Assembly (NCBI GenBank): GCA_017523725.1
Contig: JAFWVY010000050.1
Coordinates: forward strand, 1-64,000
DNA from: Bacteroidales bacterium
GTDB taxonomy: Bacteria; Bacteroidota; Bacteroidia; Bacteroidales; UBA4181
Reading direction: 5' to 3'
DNA: 64,000 bases
Position 1 is the stretch's first letter. Each line of letters begins with the position of its first letter. Positions 11,991 through 53,055 of the stretch are shown piece after piece. Made by a program: the position numbers and the translations under genes. Below the pieces are notes generated by a model, which worked only from the letters and a program-made list of their open reading frames with translations, searched no databases and was not told where the DNA came from.

Positions 11991-14900
11991 CTATAATTCT
12001 TTTACAAACTTTCCTGCTTGTACACCGTCCGCTGTCACAATCCGCAAGAGATAGGTTCCTGCAGGGAGATCTCCGACGGGCAGTTCCTGACTGCCGGACG
12101 GCTTCTGCCAGATGAGCAGCCGGTTACCGGCCATGTCGCAAATTTCGACCGTTCCTCCCGAAAGTGGCAGATCGACATGCAGAATATCCCGCACCGGATT
12201 GGGATAGAAGGTCGGACGTGCGGCCAACGTTTCCGGCAATCCCGTCACCTGAGACAGCGTAACCGTCCCAGCTGACTGTGTTTTGCACTGCGACTGCAAA
12301 TCGGTCACTTCCACCCTGTACGTCCCGGAAGCCGGTACCATGCACTGCGCATCACCGGAGGTCTTGCTCAGCACTCCTTCCTGAAGGGTCCAACCGGCAG
12401 AACGCAGTGCCGCCGAGGCGGCATCCGACGCCGGCCGGACACACATCCACCGGTACGCGTAACCGTCCGAAGGCGCGGTAACCGAAGCCGTCAGACGGCT
12501 GTACTGTCCGCTCAATGTAACAGACTTGAGCGACGATACTTCCAGCAGGACTTCGTCCGAGAAAACGGCATCGTTGGCGTTATAAACCTTGACGGTATAC
12601 ACGCCGGGCGCATCGGTCGTGTACGAAGACCGGATAGCGCCGGAAACTGGCGATGCATTCAAATACCACTGGTACCGCAAATTATTGCCGGAAGCCGTCA
12701 CCTGCATCGTATGGGAAGCGCCTGCACACAATTTCTGCGCCGGAGCTGCCGGCTGCGTGATGATGACGACACGATCCACTGCAGGATCTGTCACCACTCG
12801 GATTACGCCGGTATTGATGTCCGCAAGATCCCATAGAAGGCCGTCGGCAGGAACGGCCGGCTGGATTACAGTCGGTTGGCCGGAGAACGAAGCCGCCCCG
12901 GCAATGGTCAGGACATCGCCCGCTGCATAGGTACCTGACAGAAGCGTCAGTTGCAGCGTACCGTTCCACGTCACACGACCGGCTGCCTGCAATTTGTCGC
13001 AACGGATGGCTGACGAGGTTTTGCGGACTTCCACCGCATAGATGCCCGTACTGACGAACGTTACATCGGAATCGAAATTCAGTGTACCTACGTCGTCACG
13101 GCCAGGCTGAAGCATACCCGCAACCGATACGGCACCGGCAATGGTACCTGTGCCTCCCAGTACCGCACCTTGCGCAACCGACACGCTGCCCGTACCCGTC
13201 GCACTGCCGGCCGTATTCATCACCAGCAACCGGCCTTCCGCCACTTGTGTCGTTTCTGTATAGGTATTGTTTCCAGTCAGTGTCCAGGTGCCGGCGCCCC
13301 GCTTGACAATCCGGAGCGTCTTGGAGATGGTGCCTTCGAAAGTGCCATCCTGCCCGTTGCCGCCAACGGCCCAGGTTATGGTCCTGGACGATGCACCCTG
13401 CAAGGATGAAGTGGCCGGACCGGTCAGCATGCCGACGGGCACTTCGCCAGACGGTGCAGCAGTCGGATAATGCAGCATGGCCGATCCCGTCAGGTTGACC
13501 GTTGCACCGGGCAAGCCTTTTTCGTTCCGCAAACGGAATTCACCTGTGGCACCACCTATTTCCAGTATGCCCGTGAAAGCCGACCAGTCACCCGCCATCT
13601 CTGCCCGCACATACGGAATCAGCAGCGTCAGATGACCTTCGCCGGTCAAGGCGCCCGTCATGTTGAAACGGTCGGGCACACGCAGGACCGCCTCGCCGCC
13701 GGCCGGCACACAAATGTCCCATGCCGCAGGGCCTGTATAAGACATATTGTTGATTCCAAACATATTGACCGTTCCATTTTCAATGGTGATACCCGTCGGG
13801 AAAGCGTCCATATTCGCCTCATAGGTCCCCAGCAGGATGGTTCCTTCGCGCAAGACCGTACCACCGGTATGGGTGTTCCGGCCGCTCAGGGTCAGCTGGC
13901 CGGCCCCCGTCTTTATCAATCGGCCGCTGCCGGTTATGGCACCGCTCAGGTTGGCATAGACCGTCCTGGTAGGAATATCAATCTGATTTTCTCCGATAAG
14001 CGAAAGTGAGCGATCGGTCGTGCTTTCCCGCATAATGCGCAATATGGCGTTCTGCAGCAGCACCGTGCCGTCTTCGCCCGAAGCAGCACCGATGGACGAA
14101 GGCGATCCGGCCACCGACAGCTGGGCAACCTCCAGCGTACCGCCCAGCACTTCGGTCCGGCCGGTATAGGTATGCGCCGTACCCTCGATAGTCAAGGTGT
14201 GCTGCCCATTCTTGCGCAGTCCGCCGATTCCGGACAGCACGCCGCTGCCGGACAGCGTATAGTCGGATTCTGCATCCATCTGCAAAAGACGCATGGGCAG
14301 CGTACCGGACAAGACGATGGATTTGCTCAGCGCCGCATCGGTGAGATAGACCGAATCCTGTGGCGCAAAAACCGTCTGCGTCTGACCGACCAGGAAATTC
14401 TTTGTACGCATGTCCCATACGTTGTCGATTGTTCCCATCCACCGGACCGTCGACGGCAAGCGGGGCTCCTCTACGCTTATCCGTAGGAAACGCCCGTCCG
14501 TCTGCAGTTCATATGGAATGCCGTCCAGACCCTGCACGGTGAATTGGGAGGCAGATGCCTGCAGACCGCCCTTGGCCTCCAGCAGTGTGTATGTGCCGGC
14601 AGCCAGCGACCCCGGTACATATTGCAACAGGATTGTATTGTCCGTGCCGGTGATGGTCAGACGGCCTTGCACAACGATGGAATCGTTCCGCCGGTCGGAC
14701 GAGGACGAAATATCAAAAGCAAATGTATTCCGGCCGCCAGCCGTAACATCTCCGGCTATAGTCAAAGTTCCCAGCTCGGATGCGCCTGTTCCGAACCCAG
14801 GTTCCAGACGGCCGCCCTCGACATTCAACCCTTCTTCAAGCAAGATGCCGCCGCGCAGCGTCGCAATGCCGGCCAAGGTCCCGCGAGCCTGCACCCTCAC

Positions 14901-17198
14901 CTGACTTTCGAGCGTGCCATCCACCACGAAACGGCCCTCTGAAATCCGCGTCTGGCCGGTATAGGTATGCGCTCCCCGCAGAATCACAGTACCCTGCTGC
15001 GACTTGACCACCGGCATCGGACCTGTCAGCACACCGGCACCTGCCAGTTCACAGGTCGTACCCCGCGGATTCATCATCCATAATTTCTTGGGTGCCAAGG
15101 CTCCCGTCAACTGCACATGCATGGTATCAGCCGTCACGCCACGCAGGTCGAACATCACCTCTTTCCCGTCGGCATATGAGGCCGGCGCTCCGGTCTGCCC
15201 ATTGGCAAATGCCGGGCTCCCGGACTGCCAGACCGCTCCGTCGGCGCCGGTCCAGTACATGTCGCTCTGCATGACAGGCGGCACGGGCGGTGCCGGCATA
15301 TCATAAGCCAGATAATAATCCGTATAGGGCCCCTGATAATAGCCTTTTGTCGTCGCCTGCATCCGGTAGCCGGGATTCTGCATCAGACAGTAAATCCGAT
15401 GCTCGGTAACGTCCCATGTGGAAATAATGCAGAAACCTGTGGAATCGCAACGCATCAGCACCAGTTCTTCGCGCCAGTCGCCCAGCAAATCGCCCATGAA
15501 AGCCGGTCGTCCGCCGTACTGTGCCTTGGTGTAATACGAGGATTTCTCGTGGTACAACGGTTTATTGTTATACATATAACGGTCCATCTTCTTGGTGACG
15601 GAATTCCATTTTTTGATATCGATATTGGCACCGTCGCTGTCGATGGGAGCCAGCACTTCCCGGCCCAGGTCACCGTCCCACCAGAGCGGTTCTGCCGGGA
15701 AATCGGTACTCGAATCAACCAAAAGATTTCCCTTGGCATCATAATAGCCGTACATGGTGGAATACATCTCCAGTCCCCGTGAGGTCTCATCCATGTCGAT
15801 GCACTCGCCGCGGCCGACATCGCCTACACCGCTCATATACCATTTCTTAATCATTTCACCCGTCGCAGCATCGTACAGTGCCATGCCCAACGTCGTGGGG
15901 TTGTTCTGCTGGATGGCGAATGTTTCGAGGCCCGGCCGGTCCGGGTCGATATCCGTGGTCCGGTGCCGGTCGCCATGACACAATTCAGTACCAAAAAGCG
16001 GCTGCCCCGTATGGTCCAGGACAAAACCGCCTTCTATCATCTCATCGAACCCGTCGCCGTCCACATCGGCGATACGGATCTGGTGGAAATCGTTGTATTG
16101 GTTGCCTTCATTCCGGTTTACCCAGTTGAACCGTTCCGTCAGCACGCCGTCGCGATAATCCCACGCCGTGACGAAACCGTTGAACGACTTGTCGGCGTTG
16201 CGGTTGGAATATTCAAAAATCAGACTCGGACGCACACCGTCCAGATAAGCGATGCCGAAGTGGCCGTTGTGGTTCCTGTAATGCCAGGTGTTGTACAGTC
16301 CTTCTTTTTCACGGTACGACTTGTTAGGCATCTCAATACGCGCGAGTTCCGTACCGGTCATGCCGTTCACCACCGAAATATAATGCACGGGAACCAACTG
16401 CGTGTTCCGTGTATCGGTTACGGTTCCATCTGCCGCCGTGATGCACGTCCCATCCGCAAACGTGGTACCCTCGGACGTTTTCATCAACACTTCCGCTTTG
16501 CCGTCACCGTCCATGTCGTAGGCAATGACCATGTCGTCATGCCCGTTGCATATCTGGACATTCGGTCCCATGTCGATACGCCACATAAACTGACCGGTGC
16601 TCGAATATGCCTCAACCTTCGGCGTAGGATAACTGCCGGAATTCACGCCGGTTTCGTCATCCGATGCCGTGGCTCCGTAATTCTGCCGGTCCATCACGAA
16701 ATCGTAGGCGCCATCTCCATCCAGGTCGGCCGGCCAGCAGAACTTCATGTTGTAGCGCTTGCCGTCTGGCATGGGTGCGAAATTGAAATCCTGGACAATA
16801 CGGTGGAAACTCGTAGAAGCCCGGTATGCGAAAGGCTCACTGGCAGGACCTTCCACTCCGTCTTGTACCGGCCGCACTGTAATCGTATGATTGGACGATG
16901 CAGAAAGCGATGCCAGAAGATTTGTCGAATTCGCGATGGGAGAAGCATTGAGTTTAATGCCATCGGCATAGACGTTGAATGCCAGATCTTCTGCATCACC
17001 GGCCAGATAGCGCCAGCTGATGAAAACCTCGTTGGCACTTTTGGCCATGGCTATGACGCCACGGTTCAACGACTCTATCTGACGCTGGCCGCAAACGGGC
17101 TGCATACACATCAGAAAAACCAACATCCATATCAGGCCATACAGTGATACGGCACGTCGGCCGGAGGCCTTACAATTACGGAAGGGAAAAAACTTCAT
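11991..17198 (-). CDS. T9SS-exported rhamnogalacturonan lyase (PL11) with autotransporter-type repeats
   Basis: A 1735-residue surface or secreted enzyme. Order: signal peptide (about 15-37, ending CMQPVCG); a PL11 rhamnogalacturonan I lyase beta-propeller (about 40-635) with repeated calcium-loop motifs (LDGDGAYDFVMDR, DMDGDGKAEVLMK, DVDGDGFDEMIEGG) and GHDDMVIAYDMDG; a long segment (about 650-1470) with at least four passenger-associated repeats of the form KTGAGQLTLSGRNTHTGGT, as in type V autotransporter stalks; an Ig-like domain (about 1475-1560, LRYQWYLNASPVSG); and a T9SS type A sorting domain (about 1659-1735, FYPNPVRDILHVDL to GTYLLRIV). PL11 enzymes cleave the pectin rhamnogalacturonan backbone by beta-elimination. 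The full PL11 region looks intact. No SusCD pair is adjacent. Confidence 0.9.
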   Translation of the reverse strand: MKFFPFRNCKASGRRAVSLYGLIWMLVFLMCMQPVCGQRQIESLNRGVIAMAKSANEVFISWRYLAGDAEDLAFNVYADGIKLNASPIANSTNLLASLSASSNHTITVRPVQDGVEGPASEPFAYRASTSFHRIVQDFNFAPMPDGKRYNMKFCWPADLDGDGAYDFVMDRQNYGATASDDETGVNSGSYPTPKVEAYSSTGQFMWRIDMGPNVQICNGHDDMVIAYDMDGDGKAEVLMKTSEGTTFADGTCITAADGTVTDTRNTQLVPVHYISVVNGMTGTELARIEMPNKSYREKEGLYNTWHYRNHNGHFGIAYLDGVRPSLIFEYSNRNADKSFNGFVTAWDYRDGVLTERFNWVNRNEGNQYNDFHQIRIADVDGDGFDEMIEGGFVLDHTGQPLFGTELCHGDRHRTTDIDPDRPGLETFAIQQNNPTTLGMALYDAATGEMIKKWYMSGVGDVGRGECIDMDETSRGLEMYSTMYGYYDAKGNLLVDSSTDFPAEPLWWDGDLGREVLAPIDSDGANIDIKKWNSVTKKMDRYMYNNKPLYHEKSSYYTKAQYGGRPAFMGDLLGDWREELVLMRCDSTGFCIISTWDVTEHRIYCLMQNPGYRMQATTKGYYQGPYTDYYLAYDMPAPPVPPVMQSDMYWTGADGAVWQSGSPAFANGQTGAPASYADGKEVMFDLRGVTADTMHVQLTGALAPKKLWMMNPRGTTCELAGAGVLTGPMPVVKSQQGTVILRGAHTYTGQTRISEGRFVVDGTLESQVRVQARGTLAGIATLRGGILLEEGLNVEGGRLEPGFGTGASELGTLTIAGDVTAGGRNTFAFDISSSSDRRNDSIVVQGRLTITGTDNTILLQYVPGSLAAGTYTLLEAKGGLQASASQFTVQGLDGIPYELQTDGRFLRISVEEPRLPSTVRWMGTIDNVWDMRTKNFLVGQTQTVFAPQDSVYLTDAALSKSIVLSGTLPMRLLQMDAESDYTLSGSGVLSGIGGLRKNGQHTLTIEGTAHTYTGRTEVLGGTLEVAQLSVAGSPSSIGAASGEDGTVLLQNAILRIMRESTTDRSLSLIGENQIDIPTRTVYANLSGAITGSGRLIKTGAGQLTLSGRNTHTGGTVLREGTILLGTYEANMDAFPTGITIENGTVNMFGINNMSYTGPAAWDICVPAGGEAVLRVPDRFNMTGALTGEGHLTLLIPYVRAEMAGDWSAFTGILEIGGATGEFRLRNEKGLPGATVNLTGSAMLHYPTAAPSGEVPVGMLTGPATSSLQGASSRTITWAVGGNGQDGTFEGTISKTLRIVKRGAGTWTLTGNNTYTETTQVAEGRLLVMNTAGSATGTGSVSVAQGAVLGGTGTIAGAVSVAGMLQPGRDDVGTLNFDSDVTFVSTGIYAVEVRKTSSAIRCDKLQAAGRVTWNGTLQLTLLSGTYAAGDVLTIAGAASFSGQPTVIQPAVPADGLLWDLADINTGVIRVVTDPAVDRVVIITQPAAPAQKLCAGASHTMQVTASGNNLRYQWYLNASPVSGAIRSSYTTDAPGVYTVKVYNANDAVFSDEVLLEVSSLKSVTLSGQYSRLTASVTAPSDGYAYRWMCVRPASDAASAALRSAGWTLQEGVLSKTSGDAQCMVPASGTYRVEVTDLQSQCKTQSAGTVTLSQVTGLPETLAARPTFYPNPVRDILHVDLPLSGGTVEICDMAGNRLLIWQKPSGSQELPVGDLPAGTYLLRIVTADGVQAGKFVKEL

Positions 17199-17397: not shown

Positions 17398-20300
17398 CTA
17401 TCTTTCGATGGTCACTTTCTTGGTAATGGTCTGGTCGCCGTAAATAACCTTGATGAAGTACATGCCGGCCGGAGCAGAGGTGAGGTCGATGACCGCCTCT
17501 TCCTGACCGTTCACCTTCTCGGAGAAGATGGTAGCACCGGTCAGATTGTCCACCTGGATGAGGACCTGAGCGTCCACAGGCAGGTTCTGTACTCTGAAGA
17601 TACCCGTCGAAGGATTCGGATAAGCGGCAATCTGCTGCAGCGCAAGATCCGGATCGGCAGCCGTGATACCGGCACCGACGATACGCGTGGTAGAAGTGGT
17701 GGAGCAACCGTTTTCGTTGGTTACGATAACCGCATAGTTGCCTCTCTTCTTGACCATGTACGAAGCATTGGTAGCACCCTGAATGGGTTCTTCATCCAGC
17801 GTCCACTGATACTTGACCGTGGCAGGATTCGGATCGCTGATCGTAGCGGTCAGCGTGCTGTAGGACTGGTTAACCAACACCGACGGATTATCGAAGGTTC
17901 TGATTTCCACAACATTCGAAAGACCAGTACCGCATTCGTTCGTGGCAGCCACATAGTAGTCGCCATTGTAACGCGTAGCATAAGAACTTACAGTTGCTTC
18001 CTCGATCAACTCGTCATCACGATACCATGCATAGCTGTCAGCCGGATAATCGTACTCGGGAACCAGGTCGAACAACATACCGCTGCAAACCGCCGGCAGG
18101 TCGAATTCAATGTTGGAGGCAGGCGTGAGCTTGGCCGTGAAGGTAACCTCGTCAGACTTCGTCATGCAGAGGTCATCGTTGGTCAGTACCACATAGTAGG
18201 TACCAGATTCCGTCGTTTCGAAATCAGGCTTGTCTGCGCCCTCGATGGCTTCACCATCCTTGAACCACTGATAAGAGGTGACATCCACACCGAAGACCGA
18301 CAATTCACCAATCTGACCATCGCAGAGGCTGCCGGCATAACCTTCGATATATTCTTCGGCAAACGGCTGGGTACGGATGGTCGGGACCTTCAGGAAGGTT
18401 ACTTCCTTCGCAGAGGAGTTCGTGGCGCAGGCACCGTCCGTCGAAACCGTTACATAATATGTACCGCTTTCAACCGGGCTGTAAGAAGCGGAGGTGGCGT
18501 TACGGACCATGGCTCCGTCCTTGTACCACTGATAAGACAGCGTACCGCTCGAAGCTTCCGCCTCAATGGACAGGGAGACTTCCTCACCGGCGCAGGCAAT
18601 AATCGGTTCCGCTGCGAGTTCAAGGTCCTTGGTGATCTCACCGGAAGAAGACAGGGCCAGATTGACGACCTTCGTGGTTTTCACGCAACTGCCGACCGTC
18701 ACTTCAACCTGGTAAGCACCATTCGCATCAGCCGTGTAGCTGGACTCGGTGGCACCGGCAATCTCAGCACCATCCTGGAACCAGCGGTAAGTGGCCGATT
18801 CGAAGGAAGAACCATTCGTAGCAGACTTCGGAGCCACGGAGAATACATGATCGGAAGCGCACTCATTGACATCGGCCGTCGGGAATCCGCTGAACGCGAT
18901 GGCCGTGATATCAACATAAGCCTTTTCGGAATAGGTGTAACCACGGGCAACAGACAGATAGCACAGATAATAGCCGCTCTGACGTGCCGTATAGGAAGAA
19001 GCCGTTGCACCGGCGATTTCCGTTTCTTCGGAAGCTTCGACAGAATTGTCGTCGCCCAGATAATGCCACTGGTAATTGATAATACCATCAATAGCCTGCG
19101 TCGTGGCTTCGATCTGCAGCGTCACATAGGCACCCTCGCACAGCTGTTCGTCGTTGCCGACCGGCTGTGCAACGATACCGGGTTCGAAGCGGACCAGCGT
19201 AGACTCAAGGTGCGTCATACAGCCAAGTTCGGAATAGATATCAGCTGCATAGTAGCCGGAAGTCGTCATGACATACTTGGGATTCCACTCGAAATCGAGC
19301 GGTGTCTCATCTGTAGGATTGTCCACCGGAGCCATGTACCACTGCCAAGCCTCAAGGGTCTCACCCGAAGCAGGCGTCACGAAGATACTGTCACCATCGG
19401 TACGGTAGGAAGTGCCGGCCGCGATGGTGGAAGGATTGTGACCTTCACGGACTTCAAACTCATAATCTTCCGTAGAAGAGCCCTTGATTGCCGTAACCGT
19501 GTACATACCGGCTTCCGTCGTGCTGTATTCAGACACACCGGAAGCAACGGTGGCACCGTCTTTCTTCCATTCGAACGACACACCTTCCAGCAGGGTCTCG
19601 ACAGCAAGCTCGCAAGCCGCACCGTCGCAGATACCAGCCAATTTACGCGGGGTCTTCGAGAACATGGAGAAGTCGACAATTTTCAACTTTCCAGTCTCAT
19701 TCAGATAATCCAGATCGAAAACCGGGACCTTGGTCGCTTCCGGTCCGACACCAACCACTTCAATGGCTGAGAACTGCGGCCAGGGCAAAGCCGTGCCAGC
19801 TGCATCCTGGACAATCAAGAACGGGAATTCCGCACCGACTGTGAAATCCTTGGCAACATACACGCGAACGGTGTTTCCCGGCATGACAAGGCTTTCGGTG
19901 ACAATCTCCAGCGTGTCAAAACTGTCATTATCCAAAAGGTCAATATCAACATAACCGCCACCCCAGGTGAATGCACCGTTGCTGACAGCAAGTTCGCCAG
20001 CCTGGTTTTCACCAGCGCCGGGACGCAACGCGCCGCTACCGGTGATGAGGTTTTTCAAAAGGCCATTGCCACCAAGGAAGGCACCTTCGGCAACGGTAAC
20101 GGCTCCCGTTCCAAGACCGGTGCCGGTTGAGCTGTTAACATAAATACCTCCTTCACGGATTTCCGTTCCCTGAGTATAGGAAGAACCACCATTGGGCAAC
20201 GTGAGGGAGCCCGTGCCGACTTTGCGGAGTGCGGTAACGCCCGTGTAACCACCCTTCATCTGGCCGTCAACGATTTTGCCGGAGAAATAGGAATCGGTGT

Positions 20301-20949
20301 TGCGACCGCCGATTTCCCAAGTGGTTTTAATTGTTCCGCCAAGCTGGAAACCGGAACTGCCGAGAGCAGACCCGCTGTATGCATCCTCGCATTGGATTTC
20401 ACCGATTTTCGTAACCGTGTTGGTGGTAACACCTCCGTAACGGGTATCAGCGACATAACCGCCGTACAAAGAACCCGTCGTCTTGAAGACAAAACGTCCG
20501 TTCGGCATACCATAAGCACCATCTCTGTTGATTCCACCAAGATACATCATGCTTCGGGCGGCCGTCCAACGGAACTCTCCTTCGAAAAGTTCATCGGTAA
20601 GAGCAAAACCCTCACGAGAGTTGGCCGGGCTGATCTGCTGGAAATTGATGATACCGCCACCGTGCAGTGCACCAGACCAGGATGCATACTGGACAGAAGA
20701 TTTCATCGTCGTAGCTGTGCCGGCCGGCACCGTAATGGAACCGAATATGAGGCCACCTCTGAACGTACTTGTTATCGTTCCTCCGTTTTCTACGATGAAA
20801 TGCTTATCAGCCCCCTGATCACCGCTCCAGGACACTGCGGTATTGATTACCGTCTGCGCCGATGCCCATTGAACAGAGAACGCAAAGCACAACACTGCCA
20901 TAAGTCCGCGCACGCCATAGGATGCGCTCTTGTGTAAATGTTTACTCAT
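17398..20949 (-). CDS. T9SS-exported multi-Ig-like surface protein, probable adhesin
   Basis: A 1183-residue secreted protein. Signal peptide within residues 1-33 (LMAVLCFAFSVQWASA); an N-terminal Gly/Thr-rich beta-helix-like part (about 35-330) with an autotransporter-type repeat (LRKVGTGSLTLPNGGSSYTQ); about eight Ig-like or PKD-like repeats with the motifs YQWYKDGA, SYTA and SGYY; and a T9SS type A sorting domain (YPNPSTGIFRVQNL ... GMYFIKVIYG ... KKVTIER). The architecture resembles the downstream PL11 protein without its enzyme, so an adhesive or structural role is inferred. A GTG nine bases upstream is possible; the ATG at 20949 is preferred. A -7-like TAAATTTG lies at 21013-21020. Confidence 0.88.
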   Translation of the reverse strand: MSKHLHKSASYGVRGLMAVLCFAFSVQWASAQTVINTAVSWSGDQGADKHFIVENGGTITSTFRGGLIFGSITVPAGTATTMKSSVQYASWSGALHGGGIINFQQISPANSREGFALTDELFEGEFRWTAARSMMYLGGINRDGAYGMPNGRFVFKTTGSLYGGYVADTRYGGVTTNTVTKIGEIQCEDAYSGSALGSSGFQLGGTIKTTWEIGGRNTDSYFSGKIVDGQMKGGYTGVTALRKVGTGSLTLPNGGSSYTQGTEIREGGIYVNSSTGTGLGTGAVTVAEGAFLGGNGLLKNLITGSGALRPGAGENQAGELAVSNGAFTWGGGYVDIDLLDNDSFDTLEIVTESLVMPGNTVRVYVAKDFTVGAEFPFLIVQDAAGTALPWPQFSAIEVVGVGPEATKVPVFDLDYLNETGKLKIVDFSMFSKTPRKLAGICDGAACELAVETLLEGVSFEWKKDGATVASGVSEYSTTEAGMYTVTAIKGSSTEDYEFEVREGHNPSTIAAGTSYRTDGDSIFVTPASGETLEAWQWYMAPVDNPTDETPLDFEWNPKYVMTTSGYYAADIYSELGCMTHLESTLVRFEPGIVAQPVGNDEQLCEGAYVTLQIEATTQAIDGIINYQWHYLGDDNSVEASEETEIAGATASSYTARQSGYYLCYLSVARGYTYSEKAYVDITAIAFSGFPTADVNECASDHVFSVAPKSATNGSSFESATYRWFQDGAEIAGATESSYTADANGAYQVEVTVGSCVKTTKVVNLALSSSGEITKDLELAAEPIIACAGEEVSLSIEAEASSGTLSYQWYKDGAMVRNATSASYSPVESGTYYVTVSTDGACATNSSAKEVTFLKVPTIRTQPFAEEYIEGYAGSLCDGQIGELSVFGVDVTSYQWFKDGEAIEGADKPDFETTESGTYYVVLTNDDLCMTKSDEVTFTAKLTPASNIEFDLPAVCSGMLFDLVPEYDYPADSYAWYRDDELIEEATVSSYATRYNGDYYVAATNECGTGLSNVVEIRTFDNPSVLVNQSYSTLTATISDPNPATVKYQWTLDEEPIQGATNASYMVKKRGNYAVIVTNENGCSTTSTTRIVGAGITAADPDLALQQIAAYPNPSTGIFRVQNLPVDAQVLIQVDNLTGATIFSEKVNGQEEAVIDLTSAPAGMYFIKVIYGDQTITKKVTIER

Positions 20950-21223: not shown

Positions 21224-22534
21224 CTAGCGTTTTCTGTCGTCGCGGCGGCCGTGCGGACCGTCTTTGCGGTCGTGCCGTTCACCGTTCCGGCGGGGCCGGT
21301 CGGAATGTTCCTTACGCTCGGGCGTTTCGGGCATGCCTTCGGGCCGCGGCAGCAAGGCCTTGCGCGAAAGACGGAGTTTGCCCGTCTTCTTGTCCACCGC
21401 CAGCAACTTGACATCAATCTCGTCGCCTTCCTTCAGCAGGCCTTCCAGCGTATCGATGCGTTTCCAGTCGTACTCGGAAATATGCAGCAGGCCGTCCTTG
21501 CCGGGCAGAATCTCCACAAAGGCGCCGAATTCCAGGATGGACTGGACGGTGCCGTGATAGATTTTGCCTTCCTCGGGCTGCTCGATGATGGCGTTGATGA
21601 GCTTCACGGCTGAATCGAGCGCATCCTTGTTCTCGCCGTAGATATCCACGACACCGACTCCGTTCTCTTCCTCGATGACGATGGTGGCACCGGTCTTGGC
21701 CTGGATATCCTGGATTACCTTGCCGCCCGTGCCGATAACGGCACCGATCTGGTCTTTCGGAATGGTGAACTGGACAATGCGCGGCGTATGCGGCTTGTAA
21801 TCCGGACGCGGCGCAGGGATGGTTTCGGTAATGCAGTTGAGGATGTGCAGACGACCCTCGCGCGCCTGGTTCAACGCCTTGGCCAGCACTTCATAAGAAA
21901 GACCGTTAACCTTGATGTCCATCTGCGTGGCCGTGATGCCGTCGCGGGTGCCCGTGACCTTGAAGTCCATGTCGCCCAGATGGTCCTCGTCGCCGAGAAT
22001 GTCCGAGAGAATGGCATACTTGCCGGTTGCTTCGTCGGAAATAAGTCCCATGGCGATACCGGAAACCGGTTTCTTGAGCTGCACGCCGGCGTCCATGAGG
22101 GCCATCGTGGCGGCACAGACCGTCGCCATGGAAGAGGAACCGTTCGACTCAAGGATGTCCGAAACGACGCGGATGGCATACGGCTGTTCGCTGCCGGTCG
22201 GAATCATGTTCTTGACAGCGCGGTGCGCCAGGTTGCCGTGGCCGATTTCGCGGCGTGACGTGCCGCGGTAGGCCTTGGCCTCGCCTGTAGCAAACGGCGG
22301 GAAATTATAGTGCAGCACGAATTTCTCAGATCCCTGCTGCAGCACTTCGTCGATAATTTTTTCATCCAGCTTCGTGCCCAGCGTCACCGAGGCCAGCGCC
22401 TGGGTTTCGCCGCGGGTGAAGATGGCCGATCCGTGGGCGCAGGGCAGATAGTCCACTTCGCACCAGATCGGGCGGATTTCGGCCGTCGTACGGCCGTCCA
22501 GACGGATACCCTCGTTGAGGATCATGGTCCGCAT
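21224..22534 (-). CDS. pnp: Polynucleotide phosphorylase, C-terminal part (downstream of an in-frame stop)
   Basis: This 436-residue segment carries the second RNase PH core, with the catalytic region [19 protein letters not shown] intact, a KH domain ([15 protein letters not shown]), an S1 domain ([20 protein letters not shown]) and a basic tail. It is in the same frame as the N-terminal part: after the TAA at 22567-22565 the frame continues with ten PNPase-like codons ([10 protein letters not shown]) and then ATG at 22534. PNPase is normally one protein of about 700-750 residues doing 3'-to-5' phosphorolysis of RNA. If translated separately, from an ATG preceded by the A-rich GTTGAAAAAGAAGCC, this part keeps the known catalytic and RNA-binding domains. 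Otherwise the locus is a nonsense pseudogene or a sequencing error. Confidence 0.85.
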
Positions 22535-22564
22535 GGCTTCTTTTTCAACGGCATGATAGTAGCG

Positions 22565-23455
22565 TTACACCATCACCGTCTTGGCATCCTTCTCGTCGTC
22601 GTCGGGCAGCGTGGCGATGAATTCATCGCAGAGCGCCGCGAAAGCGTCCTCGCGTTCATGCTTGGGCAGCTGCGACTTGGCGATGGCGTAGGCCTTGTCG
22701 TAGGTAGCCGCACGGACGGCTTCCCTCAATGCGTCGTCGTTCTGCTCGTGGCAGTAAACCCGCTTGACGGTCTTGCCGGCCTTTTCTGAAAGCGACTTCT
22801 GGGCAAGGCAGTGTTTCTTGATCTCCTCGTGCGCAAACTGCAGTGCCTGCAGCATCTCCGCCTCGGAAACCTCTTTCATCTCGCCTTCCACCATCATGAT
22901 GTTCTCGTAGGTGGCGCCCACCATCAGTTCGATGTCGGCCTGTTCCACTTCTTCGAACGAAGGATTGATGACAAATTCCCCGTTGATGCGGGCCACCCGC
23001 ACCTCCGAGATAGGACCGTTGAAAGGTATGTCGGATACGGCCAGCGCCGCCGATGCCGCCAGTCCGGCCAATGCATCGGGCATGATGGTCTTGTCAGCCG
23101 AAATCAGGTTCACCGTCACGAAAGTCTCCGCATGGCAATCATCCGGGAAAAGCGGACGCAATGCCCGGTCTATCAACCTTGAAACCAGAATCTCATAATC
23201 GGAGAGACGTCCCTCTCTCTTCAGGAAACCGCCCGGAAAACGCCCGGCTGCCGCAAACTTTTCTCTGTACTCCACCGAAAGCGGCATGAAATCGGTGTCT
23301 TCTTTTACCTCTTTGGCCGAAACTACCGTGGCCAGCAACATGGTCTTGCCCATGCTCACGACAACCGACCCGTCGGCCTGCTTGGCCAGCTTGCCGGATT
23401 CAATGGTAATGACCCGGCCGTCGGGAAGCGTGATGGATTCTTGAATGATATTCAT
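22565..23455 (-). CDS. pnp: Polynucleotide phosphorylase, N-terminal part, ended by an in-frame TAA
   Basis: A 296-residue segment with the first RNase PH domain ([52 protein letters not shown]) and the all-helical linker domain ([14 protein letters not shown]). It ends at TAA (22567-22565) where related enzymes read through into RYYH.VEKEA. Both parts are otherwise conserved, with no second stop or frameshift, so the change is either very recent, an error, or tolerated. The gene follows rpsO across a structured 138-base spacer and has its own possible -7 box (TACATTTG, 23575-23582). Confidence 0.85.
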
Positions 23456-40360: not shown

Positions 40361-42409
40361 CTACGATTCCTCCATCTGGTCGATCATGCGGATTTTCTCT
40401 TCGAGCACCTTCAGGTCGGCCTTGCCTTTCTCAATCATGTCACGCACATTCGCAATCATGGCCTCGGCGTTCCTGGTCTTCGAGAAGAATCCGATATTGT
40501 TCTCCCACACGTTGATATCGTTCTGCAACTGTTGCATTTTCTTGAACAGCCGGTCGCGTTCCGTCTCCACCTTGCGATGGGCGCGCGGTCCGCCGGCCAT
40601 GTTTTCCATCCGTGACTTATAACGCACCAGACCCATCTTCTCCTCGTCGAGATTCAGCGCGGAGAACTGTGCGGAGATGGCGGCGCGGTAACGTTCCTGC
40701 ACCTTGGATTTCACCTTCATCGGCACGAAACCGATACCGCTCCAGGTACGCTGGAACTCCTGCAGACGGGCGATGTTCTCGTCCATGTCTTCCGTCGGAA
40801 CGAAAGCCTCGATCTGCTCAATCAGCGCCATCTTCGCCTTGTAGTTCTCATCGTACGAAGTCTCGACCGTCGAGAAATGCGCGGCTTTCTTCTCGAAGAA
40901 GGCATCGCAGGCCGCCCGGAAGCGTTTCCACAGCGCATCGCGCTGTTTGCGGGGCACCGCACCGATTTCCTTCCAGCTCTGCTGCAGCTTGATGAACTCT
41001 TCGGTCGTGGCCTTCCATTCCGTACTGTCTTTCAGCGCTTCCGCCTGGATGCACAAATCCTCCTTGAGCTGCAGGTTGTTGGTCTGCTCCTCCTTGTTTT
41101 GTGCAAAATAGGCCCGCTTTTTCGTAAAGAACGCATCGCAGGCAGTCCGGAAACGGTTGTAAATCTTGGTATTCTCCTTTTTCGTCGCAAAACCGATGGT
41201 CTGCCAGATTTTCTGGATCTCGATCATCTCCTTTGACTTGGCATCCCATTCAGCCAGCGAGGCGCAGTCTGCCGCAGCAATGGCCTCGACCTGTTCGCAA
41301 AGAGCCGTTTTCGCTTCGAGATTCTTCTGCTGCTGCGCTTTCTGGTCTTCGAAATACTGCTGGTATTTCCTGTTGATGGTCGTGGAAGCCGTCTTGAAAC
41401 GCTCCCAGATTTCGGTCCGCATTTCCTGCGGCACCGGACCTATCTCCCGCCACTGCTCGTGCAGTTGCTGCAAAGCATTGAACGCCTTGATATCCGAAGA
41501 TTCCAACAGCAGTTCCTCTGCCTTTTCGCACAATTTAATCTTGGACTCGAGGTTCTTTTTCAGATCCAGATCGCGGAGTTCCTTGTTGATCTTGATATAG
41601 TCGTAGAAATTCTCGACATTGTGGTGGTAGGTCTCCCAGAGGTTCTTCACCTCGGACTGCGGCACCGGACCGATGTTTCTCCAACGGTTCTGCAAATCGC
41701 GGAAAGCCTGGAACGTCACGCCAATGGATTCGCTGCCGTTGATCAGGTCTTTCAGTTCCTGGATGATGGCTTGCTTGGCCTCCAGATTTTTCTGTTTTTC
41801 AGCTTCCTGGGCTTCGTTCATCTGGGCCCGTTTGGCCTTGAAAGCCTGCAATGCCTGTTTCAGACGGTCCTCATAGACGTCATCTTCCAGCGAGAAGGAC
41901 GCCTCGTCGTTGCCGGCCTCCACAAATGCTTTGCGTGCGGCCTCCTGCTCCTGACGCAGTTTTCTGTAAAACTGGACTTTGATAACGTCCACATCGTGGC
42001 GTATGGCATCGGCGTCCTGATGTTCGACCAGGTCCTCCAGAATGGTCACCAACGAAGGACGGCTGTAGCCGCTGTAATCGACCGGAGCCGGAGCTGTTTC
42101 TTCCACAGGCGCGGTTTCCTCCGCCGGAGCTGCTTCTTCCGCAGGCGCGGTTTCCTCTGCCGGAGCTGTCTCCTCCACGGGAACTGATTCCTCCACGGAA
42201 ACCGGCTCCTCCGCAGGAGTTGATTCCTCAACCGGCGCCACGTTTACGGATGCCACCGTCCCCTCCGGCTCCGCCGGTGTTTCGACAGCCGCTGCCGCCA
42301 CTTCCGTTCCATTCATTTCAGGGGCCGTCTCCTGTCCGGATCCACGTATAGTTTCTCCAGCGGGAATCTCCGCACCGCCCAAGGCGGGATCAATCACTTC
42401 CGTATTCAT
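40361..42409 (-). CDS. DUF349 repeat protein with repetitive acidic N-terminus
   Basis: A 682-residue cytoplasmic protein. Residues about 30-115 are a low-complexity array of PAEETA/PVEETA-like hexads rich in Glu, Ala, Pro and Val; the rest is helical with about five DUF349 repeats marked by W..IG.VP (NRWRNIGPVPQSE, EQWREIGPVPQEM, KIWQTIGFATKKE, QSWKEIGAVPRKQ, RTWSGIGFVPMKV). Function is unknown; DUF349 proteins are widespread in Bacteroidota. The array is encoded by a degenerate 18-base tandem repeat that could vary in length. Confidence 0.88.
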   Translation of the reverse strand: MNTEVIDPALGGAEIPAGETIRGSGQETAPEMNGTEVAAAAVETPAEPEGTVASVNVAPVEESTPAEEPVSVEESVPVEETAPAEETAPAEEAAPAEETAPVEETAPAPVDYSGYSRPSLVTILEDLVEHQDADAIRHDVDVIKVQFYRKLRQEQEAARKAFVEAGNDEASFSLEDDVYEDRLKQALQAFKAKRAQMNEAQEAEKQKNLEAKQAIIQELKDLINGSESIGVTFQAFRDLQNRWRNIGPVPQSEVKNLWETYHHNVENFYDYIKINKELRDLDLKKNLESKIKLCEKAEELLLESSDIKAFNALQQLHEQWREIGPVPQEMRTEIWERFKTASTTINRKYQQYFEDQKAQQQKNLEAKTALCEQVEAIAAADCASLAEWDAKSKEMIEIQKIWQTIGFATKKENTKIYNRFRTACDAFFTKKRAYFAQNKEEQTNNLQLKEDLCIQAEALKDSTEWKATTEEFIKLQQSWKEIGAVPRKQRDALWKRFRAACDAFFEKKAAHFSTVETSYDENYKAKMALIEQIEAFVPTEDMDENIARLQEFQRTWSGIGFVPMKVKSKVQERYRAAISAQFSALNLDEEKMGLVRYKSRMENMAGGPRAHRKVETERDRLFKKMQQLQNDINVWENNIGFFSKTRNAEAMIANVRDMIEKGKADLKVLEEKIRMIDQMEES
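42085..42235 (-). repeat. Degenerate 18-base tandem repeat in the DUF349 gene
   Basis: About eight near-copies of an 18-base unit (reverse strand, of the type GCTCCGGCGGAGGAAACC) encode PAEETA-like hexads. Units differ mainly by substitutions. Multiples of three would keep frame if copy number changes. Confidence 0.65.
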
Positions 42410-49618: not shown

Positions 49619-49647
49619 GCGGAGATATGAAAATATCCGCCGTTTGT

Positions 49648-49679
49648 TTTGACAACTTCGGTCCGAACCTTTATTTTTG
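49648..49679 (+). promoter_or_regulatory. porU-porV operon promoter, full consensus
   Basis: TTTG (49648-49651), 20 bases, TATTTTTG (49672-49679). Predicts a start near 49686, only about 10 nt before the ATG at 49696, and rules out the ATG at 49627. Confidence 0.75.
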
Positions 49680-49695
49680 CAACAAATGCGATTTC

Positions 49696-52600
49696 ATGCG
49701 CCGCCTGTCTCCATATCTCCTATTCCTGCTCTGGACCGCAGCAACGGTCTGCCATGCGGCGCCGTCCGTGCTGAGTTCGGGAGATTGGGTCCGTTTCGCC
49801 GTCGTCGAGGAAGGTATCTACCGCATCACCTATCAGGAAATCGCCGACCTTGGCCTGGTGCCGGAAACGGTCGCGCTGTACGGTACGACCGGCGAAGCAC
49901 TGCAGGAGACGCCAGGACCGGCCGAAGGCGAGACGCTGCGCGAGATTCCTGTCTGGGCGGAAACCGGTGCGGACGGCGTTTTCGGTCCCGGCGACTACAT
50001 TCTGTTCTACGGCCAGGGCCCGATGAACCGCACCTTTACCGAATCGGCGGGCTACGGACACAGCCTGCATCCCTATGACACGCGCAACTGCTATTATCTG
50101 ACCTCCCGGGCCGGCGGCCGGCGCATCACCGTGCAGGAGAGCTCCCTGCAGCCCTCTGTGGAGGTCGACCACTATGACGATTTCGCCGTCCACGAAAGCG
50201 AACTGACCAACTTCCTGGGATCCGGCCGCCAATGGTACGGCGAGCAAATCAGCCTTGGAAGACCGTCACAGACCGTGTCTTTCTCGCTGCCGAACGCCGA
50301 CACAGAATGGCCCGTACAGGTGTTTTGCCAGACAGTATCGCGCAACACCGGCACCGCCTATCTGACCGTGTCCGGCGGCGGCGCCGAGACACCGGCGCAA
50401 CGGCTGCCTGTCATCGACCTGAGCGAGACGGGGGGCAACTATGCCGCACCTTTCTCCTGCATCCTTCCGGGAGCGCACGCCGATGCCGAAGGGAAACTGG
50501 ACGTCACCCTCAGAATGACAGCCGGCAGCGGCATGTCGTACGTATGGATCGACCATATCCGCCTGCTGGCCCGCTCCCACCTCCGCATAGGCAATAATCC
50601 GCTTTTTTTCAGGGATTACTACTCCACAGGACCGGGCTCCATTGCACGCTATCACCTGTCCGGAGGCACAGCCGGCACCCGGGTCTGGGACATCACCGAT
50701 CCGCACGACGTCTTCGCGCTGCAAGTATTTCCGGCTGCCGGCGAAGCCACCTTTACGGCCGATGCGTCGGAACTCAGGGAATACGTGGCATTCCGGACGG
50801 ACCAACCGTTGCTTTCCCCTGTCTGGCTACCCGCAGACGAAGCTGCTGTGGAAAACCAGGACCTGAACAATCTGCCCGACGCCGACCTGATCATCGTCAC
50901 CCCGCCGGCCTTTTCGGCGCAGGCCGGACAGCTGGCCGAACTTCACCGCATCCATGACGGCATGTCGGTCGTGACAGTGACCGATGCCCAGATCTACCAT
51001 GCATTCTCCGGCGGGAAGACCGATCCAGCCGCAATTCGCAATTTTCTGAAATTCAAATATGAGCAATCCGAGAGCCATCGGCTGAAATACGCGCTGCTGA
51101 TGGGCGACGGCACCTACGATAACCGGGCTGTCTCCGCAGCGGCAAAGGACGAACGCTATCTTGTCACCTACCAGTCCGAAAATTCCCTGTCCTCGGTTTC
51201 ATCCTTTACATCGGACGACTATTTCGGCATCTTCGGCGAGGATGCCTCGCCCATCACAGGCCACATGGACATCGGCGTCGGCCGGTTGCCGGTCAAGAGT
51301 GCGGAAGAAGCCGCCGCCGTCGTGGCGAAGATCGAACGCTATCTCACCGAACCGCAGTGGGGCGCCTGGCATCGCACCCTCTGTTTCATGGCCGACGACG
51401 AGGACGGCAACAGTCACCTGTTGCAGACAGAAGACATGACATCCTTCCTGGCCGGAAATCATCCTGAATTCGACATCCAGAAACTGTATCTCGATGCCTA
51501 CCGGCAGGAAACCACTCTTAACGGGCATCGATACCCGGAAGTGCAGAATGCTTTGAAGCAGAGCCTTGCAAACGGGATTCTGATCTTCAACTATGTCGGC
51601 CACGGCAACGAAACCGGGCTGACCAACGAACGTGTCATCAACGAAACCGACATCGCCACATGGCGTAATACCGTCTATCCGCTGTTCATCACAGCGTCCT
51701 GCGAGTTCGGCCGCTACGACAACCACATGCTGGTCACGGCAGCGGAAAAACTGCTGCTGATGCCCGAAGGCGGCGCCATCGGCCTGCTGTCTGCCACCCG
51801 GCTGGTCTATTCGGAACTCAACAGCCAGCTCAACGCCGCATTCTACCGCTACGCCTTTGCTGCGGACGGCACCGGACGGCTGGGAGACATCCTGCGGCAG
51901 GCCAAGAATGCCTCGCAACTCGGGATCAACGCCCGCGCCTTCGCTTTATTGGGAGATCCGGCGCTGCGCCTGGCGGCCCCCCATGGCCGGGCCGTGCTGA
52001 CAGACATCAACGGACAGTCGCCGGAAGAAGCCTCGTTGCAGGCCTTCCAGACTGTGAATTTATCGGGCGAAATCCAGAAAGCGGACGGCACAGCCGACAT
52101 CGGATTCAACGGCACAGCCGACATCGTGCTCTACGACAAACCCGCCACCCGGCATACGCTGGACAACGACGGCGAAGGCGGCACAGTGGCCTTCCAGACA
52201 AGTCCCGTATTGTTCAAAGGCGCATGTTCGGTATCACAGGGACGCTTCTCCCTGACATTCACCCTGCCGGGAGACCTGGACTACACACCGGGACAGGGTC
52301 GGGTGGTCTGCTACGCCTGGAACGGCACGACGGACGCTGCAGGTCAGACCGCCGTCACCATCGGCGGCAGCGCCGCACCACCGGCATCGGACCATGACGG
52401 CCCGGAAATCCGGCTGTTCCTCAACGACACCCTTTTCCGTGCGGGCGGCCTTGCCAACGAACAGCCCGTCGTTTTGGCGCTCTTGCGTGACGAAAGCGGC
52501 ATCAACGTTTCGGAAAACGCCTTCGGACACCCGCTGGAACTGCAGCTGCAGGCGCCGGACGGCACGACCTCCGTGTGGCAGGTCAATGCGTGGTATCAGA

Positions 52601-53055
52601 GTTCAACGGACGATGCGACGGCAGGACAGCTCACCTACCGGCTGCCGACCCTGGCTCCGGGCCTGTACACGCTGCAAATGGAGGCGTGGGACATCTGCAA
52701 CAACCGGGCGACTGCCAACCTGCCGTTCCAGGTCGTGCGGTCGCGTGCGGTCGCCGTACGCAACCTCCGCAACTATCCCAACCCGTTCTCCGACGAAACC
52801 AGATTCTTCTTTGAACACAACCAGCCCGACGCGCCGATAGAGGCCGTCATCCGTATCTACGCGCTGGACGGGACCCTGTTGCGTGTCCTGCAGGAAGAAG
52901 TGCCGGCAGGCGGTTATACGGCCGGCGACATGACCTGGGACGGACGCACCGCATCCGGCAAAAAAATCGGGACGGGCATATACTTATACCGGCTTTCTCT
53001 GCGTTTTAAAGACGGCCAGACCGTAACCGAAAGCGCCAAACTTATTGTACAATAA
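49696..53055 (+). CDS. porU: Type IX secretion system sortase PorU
   Basis: Outer-membrane sortase that removes the C-terminal sorting domain of T9SS cargo and attaches A-LPS. 1119 residues, gingipain-like (C25) protease. Signal peptide MRRLSPYLLFLLWTAATVCHA; the catalytic dyad is His636 (FNYVGHGNETGL) and Cys669 (FITASCEFGRYDN), 33 residues apart as in gingipains. The C-terminus carries a FlgD/T9SS-domain-like stretch (NYPNPFSDETRFFFEHN ... GTGIYLYRLSL). It heads an operon with porV. Confidence 0.93.
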   Translation: MRRLSPYLLFLLWTAATVCHAAPSVLSSGDWVRFAVVEEGIYRITYQEIADLGLVPETVALYGTTGEALQETPGPAEGETLREIPVWAETGADGVFGPGDYILFYGQGPMNRTFTESAGYGHSLHPYDTRNCYYLTSRAGGRRITVQESSLQPSVEVDHYDDFAVHESELTNFLGSGRQWYGEQISLGRPSQTVSFSLPNADTEWPVQVFCQTVSRNTGTAYLTVSGGGAETPAQRLPVIDLSETGGNYAAPFSCILPGAHADAEGKLDVTLRMTAGSGMSYVWIDHIRLLARSHLRIGNNPLFFRDYYSTGPGSIARYHLSGGTAGTRVWDITDPHDVFALQVFPAAGEATFTADASELREYVAFRTDQPLLSPVWLPADEAAVENQDLNNLPDADLIIVTPPAFSAQAGQLAELHRIHDGMSVVTVTDAQIYHAFSGGKTDPAAIRNFLKFKYEQSESHRLKYALLMGDGTYDNRAVSAAAKDERYLVTYQSENSLSSVSSFTSDDYFGIFGEDASPITGHMDIGVGRLPVKSAEEAAAVVAKIERYLTEPQWGAWHRTLCFMADDEDGNSHLLQTEDMTSFLAGNHPEFDIQKLYLDAYRQETTLNGHRYPEVQNALKQSLANGILIFNYVGHGNETGLTNERVINETDIATWRNTVYPLFITASCEFGRYDNHMLVTAAEKLLLMPEGGAIGLLSATRLVYSELNSQLNAAFYRYAFAADGTGRLGDILRQAKNASQLGINARAFALLGDPALRLAAPHGRAVLTDINGQSPEEASLQAFQTVNLSGEIQKADGTADIGFNGTADIVLYDKPATRHTLDNDGEGGTVAFQTSPVLFKGACSVSQGRFSLTFTLPGDLDYTPGQGRVVCYAWNGTTDAAGQTAVTIGGSAAPPASDHDGPEIRLFLNDTLFRAGGLANEQPVVLALLRDESGINVSENAFGHPLELQLQAPDGTTSVWQVNAWYQSSTDDATAGQLTYRLPTLAPGLYTLQMEAWDICNNRATANLPFQVVRSRAVAVRNLRNYPNPFSDETRFFFEHNQPDAPIEAVIRIYALDGTLLRVLQEEVPAGGYTAGDMTWDGRTASGKKIGTGIYLYRLSLRFKDGQTVTESAKLIVQ

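Follow-up and report, generated by a model that had tools for sequence, protein, structure and literature searches.

What is a long array of autotransporter-type repeats doing on an enzyme that carries the sorting signal of another secretion system? The question is raised by P0001, a protein of 1735 residues composed of a PL11 lyase, a double β-helix with a CBM89-like module, an Ig-like stretch and a C-terminal tail of the type IX secretion system (T9SS). It is encoded on the minus strand at positions 11991-17198 of the window, i.e., the whole 64,000-nucleotide stretch of Bacteroidales DNA that was analysed. An earlier note on this DNA had regarded the stalk behind the enzyme as an autotransporter passenger that is reused as a surface spacer or adhesive on T9SS cargo.

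Domain organization and export of P0001

P0001, all parts of which lie on the minus strand, starts with a probable Sec signal peptide (residues ~1-37, positions 17088-17198; judged by eye). This is followed by an RGI_lyase β-sheet domain (PF18370; residues 39-122, 16833-17084; Pfam E 1.6e-19) and the PL11 catalytic domain RGL11_C (PF21348; residues 145-640, 15279-16766; Pfam E 2e-90). A PL11 domain had been noticed before and is indeed present, but the accompanying label "pectin lyase" was wrong, as PL11 enzymes are rhamnogalacturonan lyases. Behind the enzyme, a first β-helix is predicted by the model (residues ~641-912, 14463-15278), after which the alignment and the model place a W-x-G linker with the first turns of a second helix (residues ~913-1119, 13842-14462). 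The CBM89-like module, delineated by fold and profile-profile comparison, lies within this second helix (residues 1120-1475, 12774-13841). Four stretches of the stalk match TIGR02601 (13221-13310, 13827-13919, 14127-14222 and 14922-15008; NCBIfam E 3.7e-26), and four match PATR (Pfam E 3.2e-21); these E values put the repeats far above chance. Thus, the ~800 residues with autotransporter-type repeats are there as described, but they do not form a single even repeat, since the region ~641-1475 is not uniform. The Ig-like domain fared less well: a stretch at residues ~1483-1540 (12579-12752) resembles Ig_7 (E 0.023) and BiPBP_C (E 1.4e-4), both matches being weak and below the Pfam cut-offs. The T9SS type A C-terminal sorting domain, in contrast, is clear (residues 1665-1734, 11997-12206), with TIGR04183 at E 8e-13 and 48.2 bits against a cut-off of 23 (NCBIfam) and Por_Secre_tail at residues 1665-1731 (Pfam E 1.5e-8).

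The enzyme part is related to YesW (2Z8R), to which residues 1-645 align with an E value of 1.6e-89. When catalytic and calcium-binding residues given in PMC8787155 were mapped onto YesW numbering in this analysis, six of the seven active-site and calcium residues aligned in P0001 (pairwise alignment). H372, H408, D410, R463 and Y620 correspond to H363, H399, D401, R452 and Y595 of YesW, and their counterparts are kept, but for one gap, in all aligned PL11 domains with a stalk. In contrast, the calcium ligand E422 is replaced by Gln431; at this position, 13 of 33 stalked PL11 domains have Gln and 20 have Glu. K535 of YesW aligns with K558, yet the loop around it is not conserved in the clade of P0001, a divergent PL11 clade from which the NGTK loop of other PL11 enzymes is missing. 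Because of the Gln at the E422 position and the missing NGTK loop, the substrate of P0001 may, as far as alignments tell, be something other than plain rhamnogalacturonan I (RG-I). Within the region corresponding to residues 553-570, R564 is invariant in the eight aligned members of this clade. The 2.35 Mb genome encoding P0001 contains eight PL11 ORFs on contigs C20, C26, C29, C31, C32, C47 and C64 (two on C64), which suggests that the organism is an RG-I specialist.

As for export, the earlier observation that there is no β-barrel translocator holds: the autotransporter barrel PF03797 is not listed for P0001 at E ≤ 1 (Pfam), nor for the 2.35 Mb genome at E ≤ 1e-3. Among 149 genomes searched, 19 gave matches to PF03797, mostly in frames of ~175-325 amino acids, and seven had a match over the family cut-off. 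The own genome encodes SprA (SprA_N E 8.6e-164) and the T9SS sortase PorU, the latter within the window at 49627-53055 on the plus strand (NF033707, 1105 bits against a cut-off of 420). Seven type A tails in this genome score over the cut-off, one of them that of PorU itself. Given these tails, SprA and PorU, the T9SS is the likely route by which P0001 is exported.

Elsewhere in the window, an in-frame TAA at 22565-22567 divides the PNPase gene (21224-23455, minus strand) into two ORFs that are otherwise in one frame; this may reflect a mistake in the assembly or a genuine interruption. On the same strand, a protein with five DUF349 stretches is encoded at 40361-42409, and a 694-residue ORF without a Pfam match at E ≤ 1e-4 is found at 61910-63994.

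Fold and ancestry of the stalk

Residues 641-1500 of P0001 were modelled from a 13-row alignment that contained PL11 stalks only. The model (mean pLDDT 89.3) is rich in strands, short ones all along its length, and its best structural matches are β-helices, as the earlier note had expected. The top match in the PDB is 7JVI (Foldseek, E 3.8e-8). In a second look with VIA, 7JVI gave a Z score of 33.5 and an rmsd of 2.5 Å over 323 of 421 residues with 23% identity, and the match spans model positions 500-834, i.e., residues ~1140-1474 of P0001. The next VIA matches are Ssp (8e7f; Z 21.2), which falls on the first helix, UpaB (Z 18.5) and pertactin (Z 17.8).

Right-handed β-helices are common in pectinases, and chains of PL6, polygalacturonase and PL3 also match the stalk model in VIA (Z ~9-12). 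Both points would fit a module that is itself a β-helix enzyme of unknown family, be it a lyase, a hydrolase or an esterase, in which case P0001 would be a two-enzyme pectinase. However, these chains are far below 7JVI in fold match, and 7JVI is the structure of CBM89, the N-terminal domain of a GH10 xylanase from a Bacteroidaceae MAG of the capybara gut (PMC8810776). That paper reports that CBM89 binds xylan, that it had no activity on 30 substrates and that, according to its authors, it lacks conserved catalytic residues of known β-helix families and resembles none of the known ancillary CAZyme domains (PMC8810776). With a closest relative of this kind, a second enzyme is highly improbable.

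The relationship to CBM89 is also seen in sequence comparisons. Among the loci with PATR repeats, one (L057) encodes a full-length relative of CapGH10, the xylanase that carries CBM89 (7JVI E 6.6e-231), and a CBM89 profile was made from eight relatives of its CapGH10-type N-terminal domain. In profile-profile comparison, the C-terminal half of the stalk (residues 1120-1475) aligned with this profile over 319 collinear columns with a score of 192 (Prob 99.7, E 5.1e-26), whereas 50 column shuffles scored at most 26.0 and the passenger of E. coli Ag43 scored 36.7 over 65 columns. The PATR-free part ahead of the repeat, taken alone, still reached a score of 66.8 over 74 columns, while its shuffles did not exceed 20.8. 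The N-terminal half of the stalk matched the profile more weakly (E 5.5e-9, 138 columns), namely in its repeat part. Judged by the predicted fold and these alignments together, residues ~1120-1475 are homologous to CBM89.

The main rival to a binding role is that the double β-helix, inherited from autotransporter-type passengers, binds nothing and acts only as a rigid spacer by which the lyase is raised clear of the polysaccharides on the cell surface. The PATR/TIGR02601 repeats agree with this, as does the first helix, for which the Ssp passenger is the nearest solved fold (Z 21.2). Moreover, when the PDB was searched with a whole-stalk profile (E ≤ 0.1), the matches included three autotransporter passengers, Ssp (E 1.3e-15), IcsA (5ke1) and fusolisin, and 7JVI was not listed. 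The PATR portion is common to CBM89-like stalks and autotransporter passengers. Nevertheless, none of the passengers listed comes anywhere near CBM89 in similarity to the second helix. A simply reused autotransporter passenger was therefore dropped as the main explanation after the fold ranking, in which 7JVI came first, and the profile comparison.

A further argument against a mere spacer is a motif outside the repeats, R1177...R1198...W1205-x2-F1208-x-G1210 (13569-13670, minus strand), which the alignments show to be shared with CBM89. It was followed through 95 module sequences (67 linked to PL11, 10 to PL1, 7 of the CapGH10 type and 11 other or cut), of which 94 are distinct, with five pairs being at least 90% alike. 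R1198 is kept in 90 of the 95 modules and G1210 in all 95; F1208 is replaced by Tyr or Met in seven and is Phe in the other 88, while Trp is found at the position of W1205 in 60. A spacer function by itself would not account for such conservation.

In CBM89, the substitutions Y62A and E82A affect xylan binding (PMC8810776). The residue numbers in that paper equal the 7JVI chain index plus two, as checked at D344, E247, E282 and Y279, and, so numbered, Y62 and E82 sit beside two of the motif arginines. In the column of Y62, Tyr is found in all seven CapGH10-type modules (a GH10 stretch is seen in six of them, in one only its start, and L149 ends before GH10), Asn in 9 of 10 PL1-linked modules, and Arg in 54 of 67 PL11-linked ones (Tyr in 5 of 67). 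This column, however, hangs on a shift of one residue: when Arg is aligned to Arg, the position of Y62 is taken by Phe, Cys or Ser. In the E82 column, the seven CapGH10-type modules all have Glu, PL11-linked modules mostly Val, Thr or Ile, and PL1-linked modules Leu or Val; for 66 of the 67 PL11-linked modules, Glu is not among the residues listed. P0001 itself has Val in the E82 column and, depending on the same one-residue choice, Arg or Phe in that of Y62. Thus, by alignment, the xylan-binding residues of CBM89 are not conserved in the module of P0001, which is why the module is filed as a sister family of CBM89 and not as CBM89 proper. That the residue in the Y62 column tracks the partner enzyme may reflect a specificity matched to the partner or plain descent.

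Spread of the module and its partners

The window contains a second copy of the module. P0002 (17398-20958, minus strand; 1186 residues) has a CBM89-like module near its N terminus (19663-20781; profile A2 E 3e-70), followed by Ig/PKD domains and a T9SS type A sorting domain (17407-17625). A catalytic family was not found in it. Its model matches 7JVI with a Z score of 31.4, the next match being at 17.7; this score is not independent, since the alignment used held CBM89-type rows, whereas the model of P0001 is independent. The two genes share a strand, with P0002 lying 199 bp upstream of P0001, and no terminator-like site was found between them on this strand, so their co-transcription is possible. 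In genome G003, of the same family, a PL11-module gene is present, and no P0002-like gene was seen, as all three module matches fall in the PL11-module ORF. P0002 may be a separate surface glycan-binding protein.

The make-up of P0002, with a module and Ig-like domains and without an enzyme, and the fact that related β-helix folds are adhesins (UpaB, pertactin, Ag43) could also mean that the module mediates adhesion between cells or to host surfaces, as Ag43 or pertactin do, with the lyase being incidental. This is very unlikely in view of the company that the module keeps. At least 53 ORFs in 393 Bacteroidales genomes contain it at E ≤ 1e-20, with 39 genomes having a match; these counts are lower bounds, as at most five first-look candidates were scored per genome. 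Its partners are PL11 (32), PL1-type enzymes (9), GH10 (2), an alginate-lyase-like domain (1) or none (5), and four ORFs are cut at the N terminus. Hence, 44 of the 49 module ORFs with a readable N terminus have a polysaccharide-degrading domain, which is of the pectin-directed PL11 or PL1 type in 41. The PL1-type assignment is based on the match of L176 to a solved pectate lyase (E 2.9e-23), a weak sub-cut-off Pfam match of L185 and a profile of three N termini. As most of the modules in profile A2 are PL11-linked, the profile is biased towards finding more of these. When only genomes without a sequence in the profile are counted, the partners are PL11 (19), PL1-type (7), GH10 (1) and none (2), with four ORFs cut, so that an enzyme domain is present in 27 of the 29 readable module ORFs of these held-out genomes and a pectin-directed one in 26.

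One of the five ORFs without an enzyme, in genome G079 (G079:C25, L201), adjoins a GH10 ORF, as seen in L148. The ORFs of L180, L200, L201 and L202 have a CBM89-like module and no enzyme domain that could be found, and L180 and L202 have a T9SS tail in Pfam; possibly, they are stand-alone surface glycan binders like P0002. The position of the module varies as well, as it also occurs N-terminally of GH10. Its presence there, on proteins without an enzyme and on enzymes of several families argues against a plain spacer, which altogether appears a rather unlikely explanation.

The repeat label gives a similar picture of partners. TIGR02601 is found in a single ORF of the own genome and in 18 of 149 searched genomes, the own one included. 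Among 31 ORFs with TIGR02601 (30 from relatives, plus P0001), 13 are PL11 enzymes with a homologous stalk of ~800 residues, two are pectinesterases, two have a pectate-lyase type N terminus, one is a GH10 enzyme and one is alginate-lyase-like; no enzyme was seen in the remaining 12, some of which are cut and of which all but L040, L042, L044 and L059 were scanned. The pectinesterases with PATR repeats (L045, L062) were considered as carriers of the module and set aside, as they gave no match to the profile of the C-terminal half at E ≤ 1. The match of the L045 ORF to profile A2 is confined to the repeats (best E 1.1e-5), and this ORF was not counted as a carrier.

A search of named genomes with the P0001 sequence alone gave no match. 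With alignment A3, the best 80 of 576 relatives were taken; 39 of these 80 loci have a module match, and 36 PL11 ORFs have one that includes the N-terminal part, several of the matches being cut or partial (L204, L211, L266). The carriers are rumen and gut Prevotellaceae, Paludibacter, Dysgonomonas sp. 216 and others; G632 and G710 are of the same genus and contain near-copies. PL11 with the module is also found in two Verrucomicrobia MAGs (L205 and L207), where the module matches reach profile positions 266 and 273 of 355 and a T9SS tail is not among the Pfam matches at E ≤ 0.01. In these, the pairing of PL11 with the module is thus independent of the T9SS route. The recurrence of the unit, also where a T9SS tail is not listed, and the identity of the closest solved relative of helix 2 both speak against the earlier idea that an autotransporter stalk had been reused as a plain spacer on T9SS cargo. 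Still outside the Bacteroidales, a PL1-type enzyme with the module is encoded in a genome of the same class (G181, L203). Two other Bacteroidales genomes each have two PL11-module genes in tandem (L175, 2250-12066; L172, 4919-14103), and in a Prevotellaceae MAG (L223, 2811-7415) the stalk of such a gene is divided between two ORFs.

In a tree of 56 PL11 domains, from which the short fragments L081 and L092 were left out, the 13 domains with a stalk fall into two clades of seven and six members, and well-supported branches force two changes. The stalks divide into the same two groups. From these two stalked clades and the matching stalk groups it follows that the module was joined to PL11 at least twice, or passed from one PL11 lineage to another, and has since remained with its enzyme.

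Proposed role and comparison with known systems

Taken together, P0001 is probably a rhamnogalacturonan lyase that is exported by the T9SS and anchored at the surface, and its CBM89-like module probably binds pectin. After Sec export, the protein would pass through SprA, and PorU would cleave the tail and anchor the protein at the cell surface. The PATR β-helix, i.e., helix 1, would serve as a spacer between the parts, whilst the module would capture pectin of the plant cell wall near the position that is used for xylan in CBM89 and so keep the lyase on its substrate. Because of its relatedness to CBM89 and its recurrence mostly on pectin-cutting enzymes, the module probably holds the enzyme on the plant cell wall. 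Of the two roles earlier offered for the stalk, an adhesive comes near to this proposal, but a spacer as its sole role does not.

More tentatively, a widespread, unrecognised family of β-helix CBMs, labelled "autotransporter repeat", might serve the pectin-degrading enzymes of Bacteroidales and of some Verrucomicrobia. The residue at the Y62 position would then follow the partner, and P0002-like genes would export the module alone as a T9SS glycan-binding protein. If so, an Arg at the Y62 position would give Arg-based recognition of the acidic RG-I. As far as the open-licence PMC literature shows, CBM89 is known from one characterised protein, and the terms "PL11" and "autotransporter" are absent from the main text of its founding paper (PMC8810776). 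In the same literature, no paper was found that joins the autotransporter-associated β-strand repeat with the T9SS, or polysaccharide lyases, autotransporters, Bacteroidetes and rhamnogalacturonan, or rhamnogalacturonan lyases, β-helices, carbohydrate-binding modules and type IX secretion. What is new here is that pectin enzymes carry a sister family of CBM89 which had gone unrecognised. Tying CBM89 to PATR and, in rumen and gut bacteria, to PL11 and PL1-type enzymes would turn an annotation label into a hypothesis on how surface enzymes hold pectin, and the set of modules offers natural variants from which binding specificity may be read.

P0001 resembles known systems in part only. It has the tail of T9SS type A cargo, with SprA and PorU encoded in the genome, but only two of the seven tail matches in this genome are on module proteins. 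It resembles the PL11 lyase YesW in H372, H408, D410, R463 and Y620, but differs in the Gln at the position of E422, in the loop around K558, which its clade does not conserve, and in having C-terminal helices added. With the passengers of type V autotransporters (Ssp, IcsA, fusolisin, UpaB and pertactin) it shares PATR/TIGR02601 repeats and a β-helix, but it has a T9SS tail in place of a C-terminal barrel, and its second helix is much nearer to CBM89. With CBM89 it shares, according to the predicted model, the β-helix fold, and further a full-length collinear homology in sequence including the R..W..F.G motif, and a plant-cell-wall enzyme of Bacteroidales as partner. However, CBM89 is joined to GH10 and is located N-terminally in CapGH10, whereas modules of the P0001 type are joined to PL11 or PL1-type enzymes, and that of P0001 is located C-terminally of the enzyme and, unlike CBM89, is preceded by an extra PATR helix.
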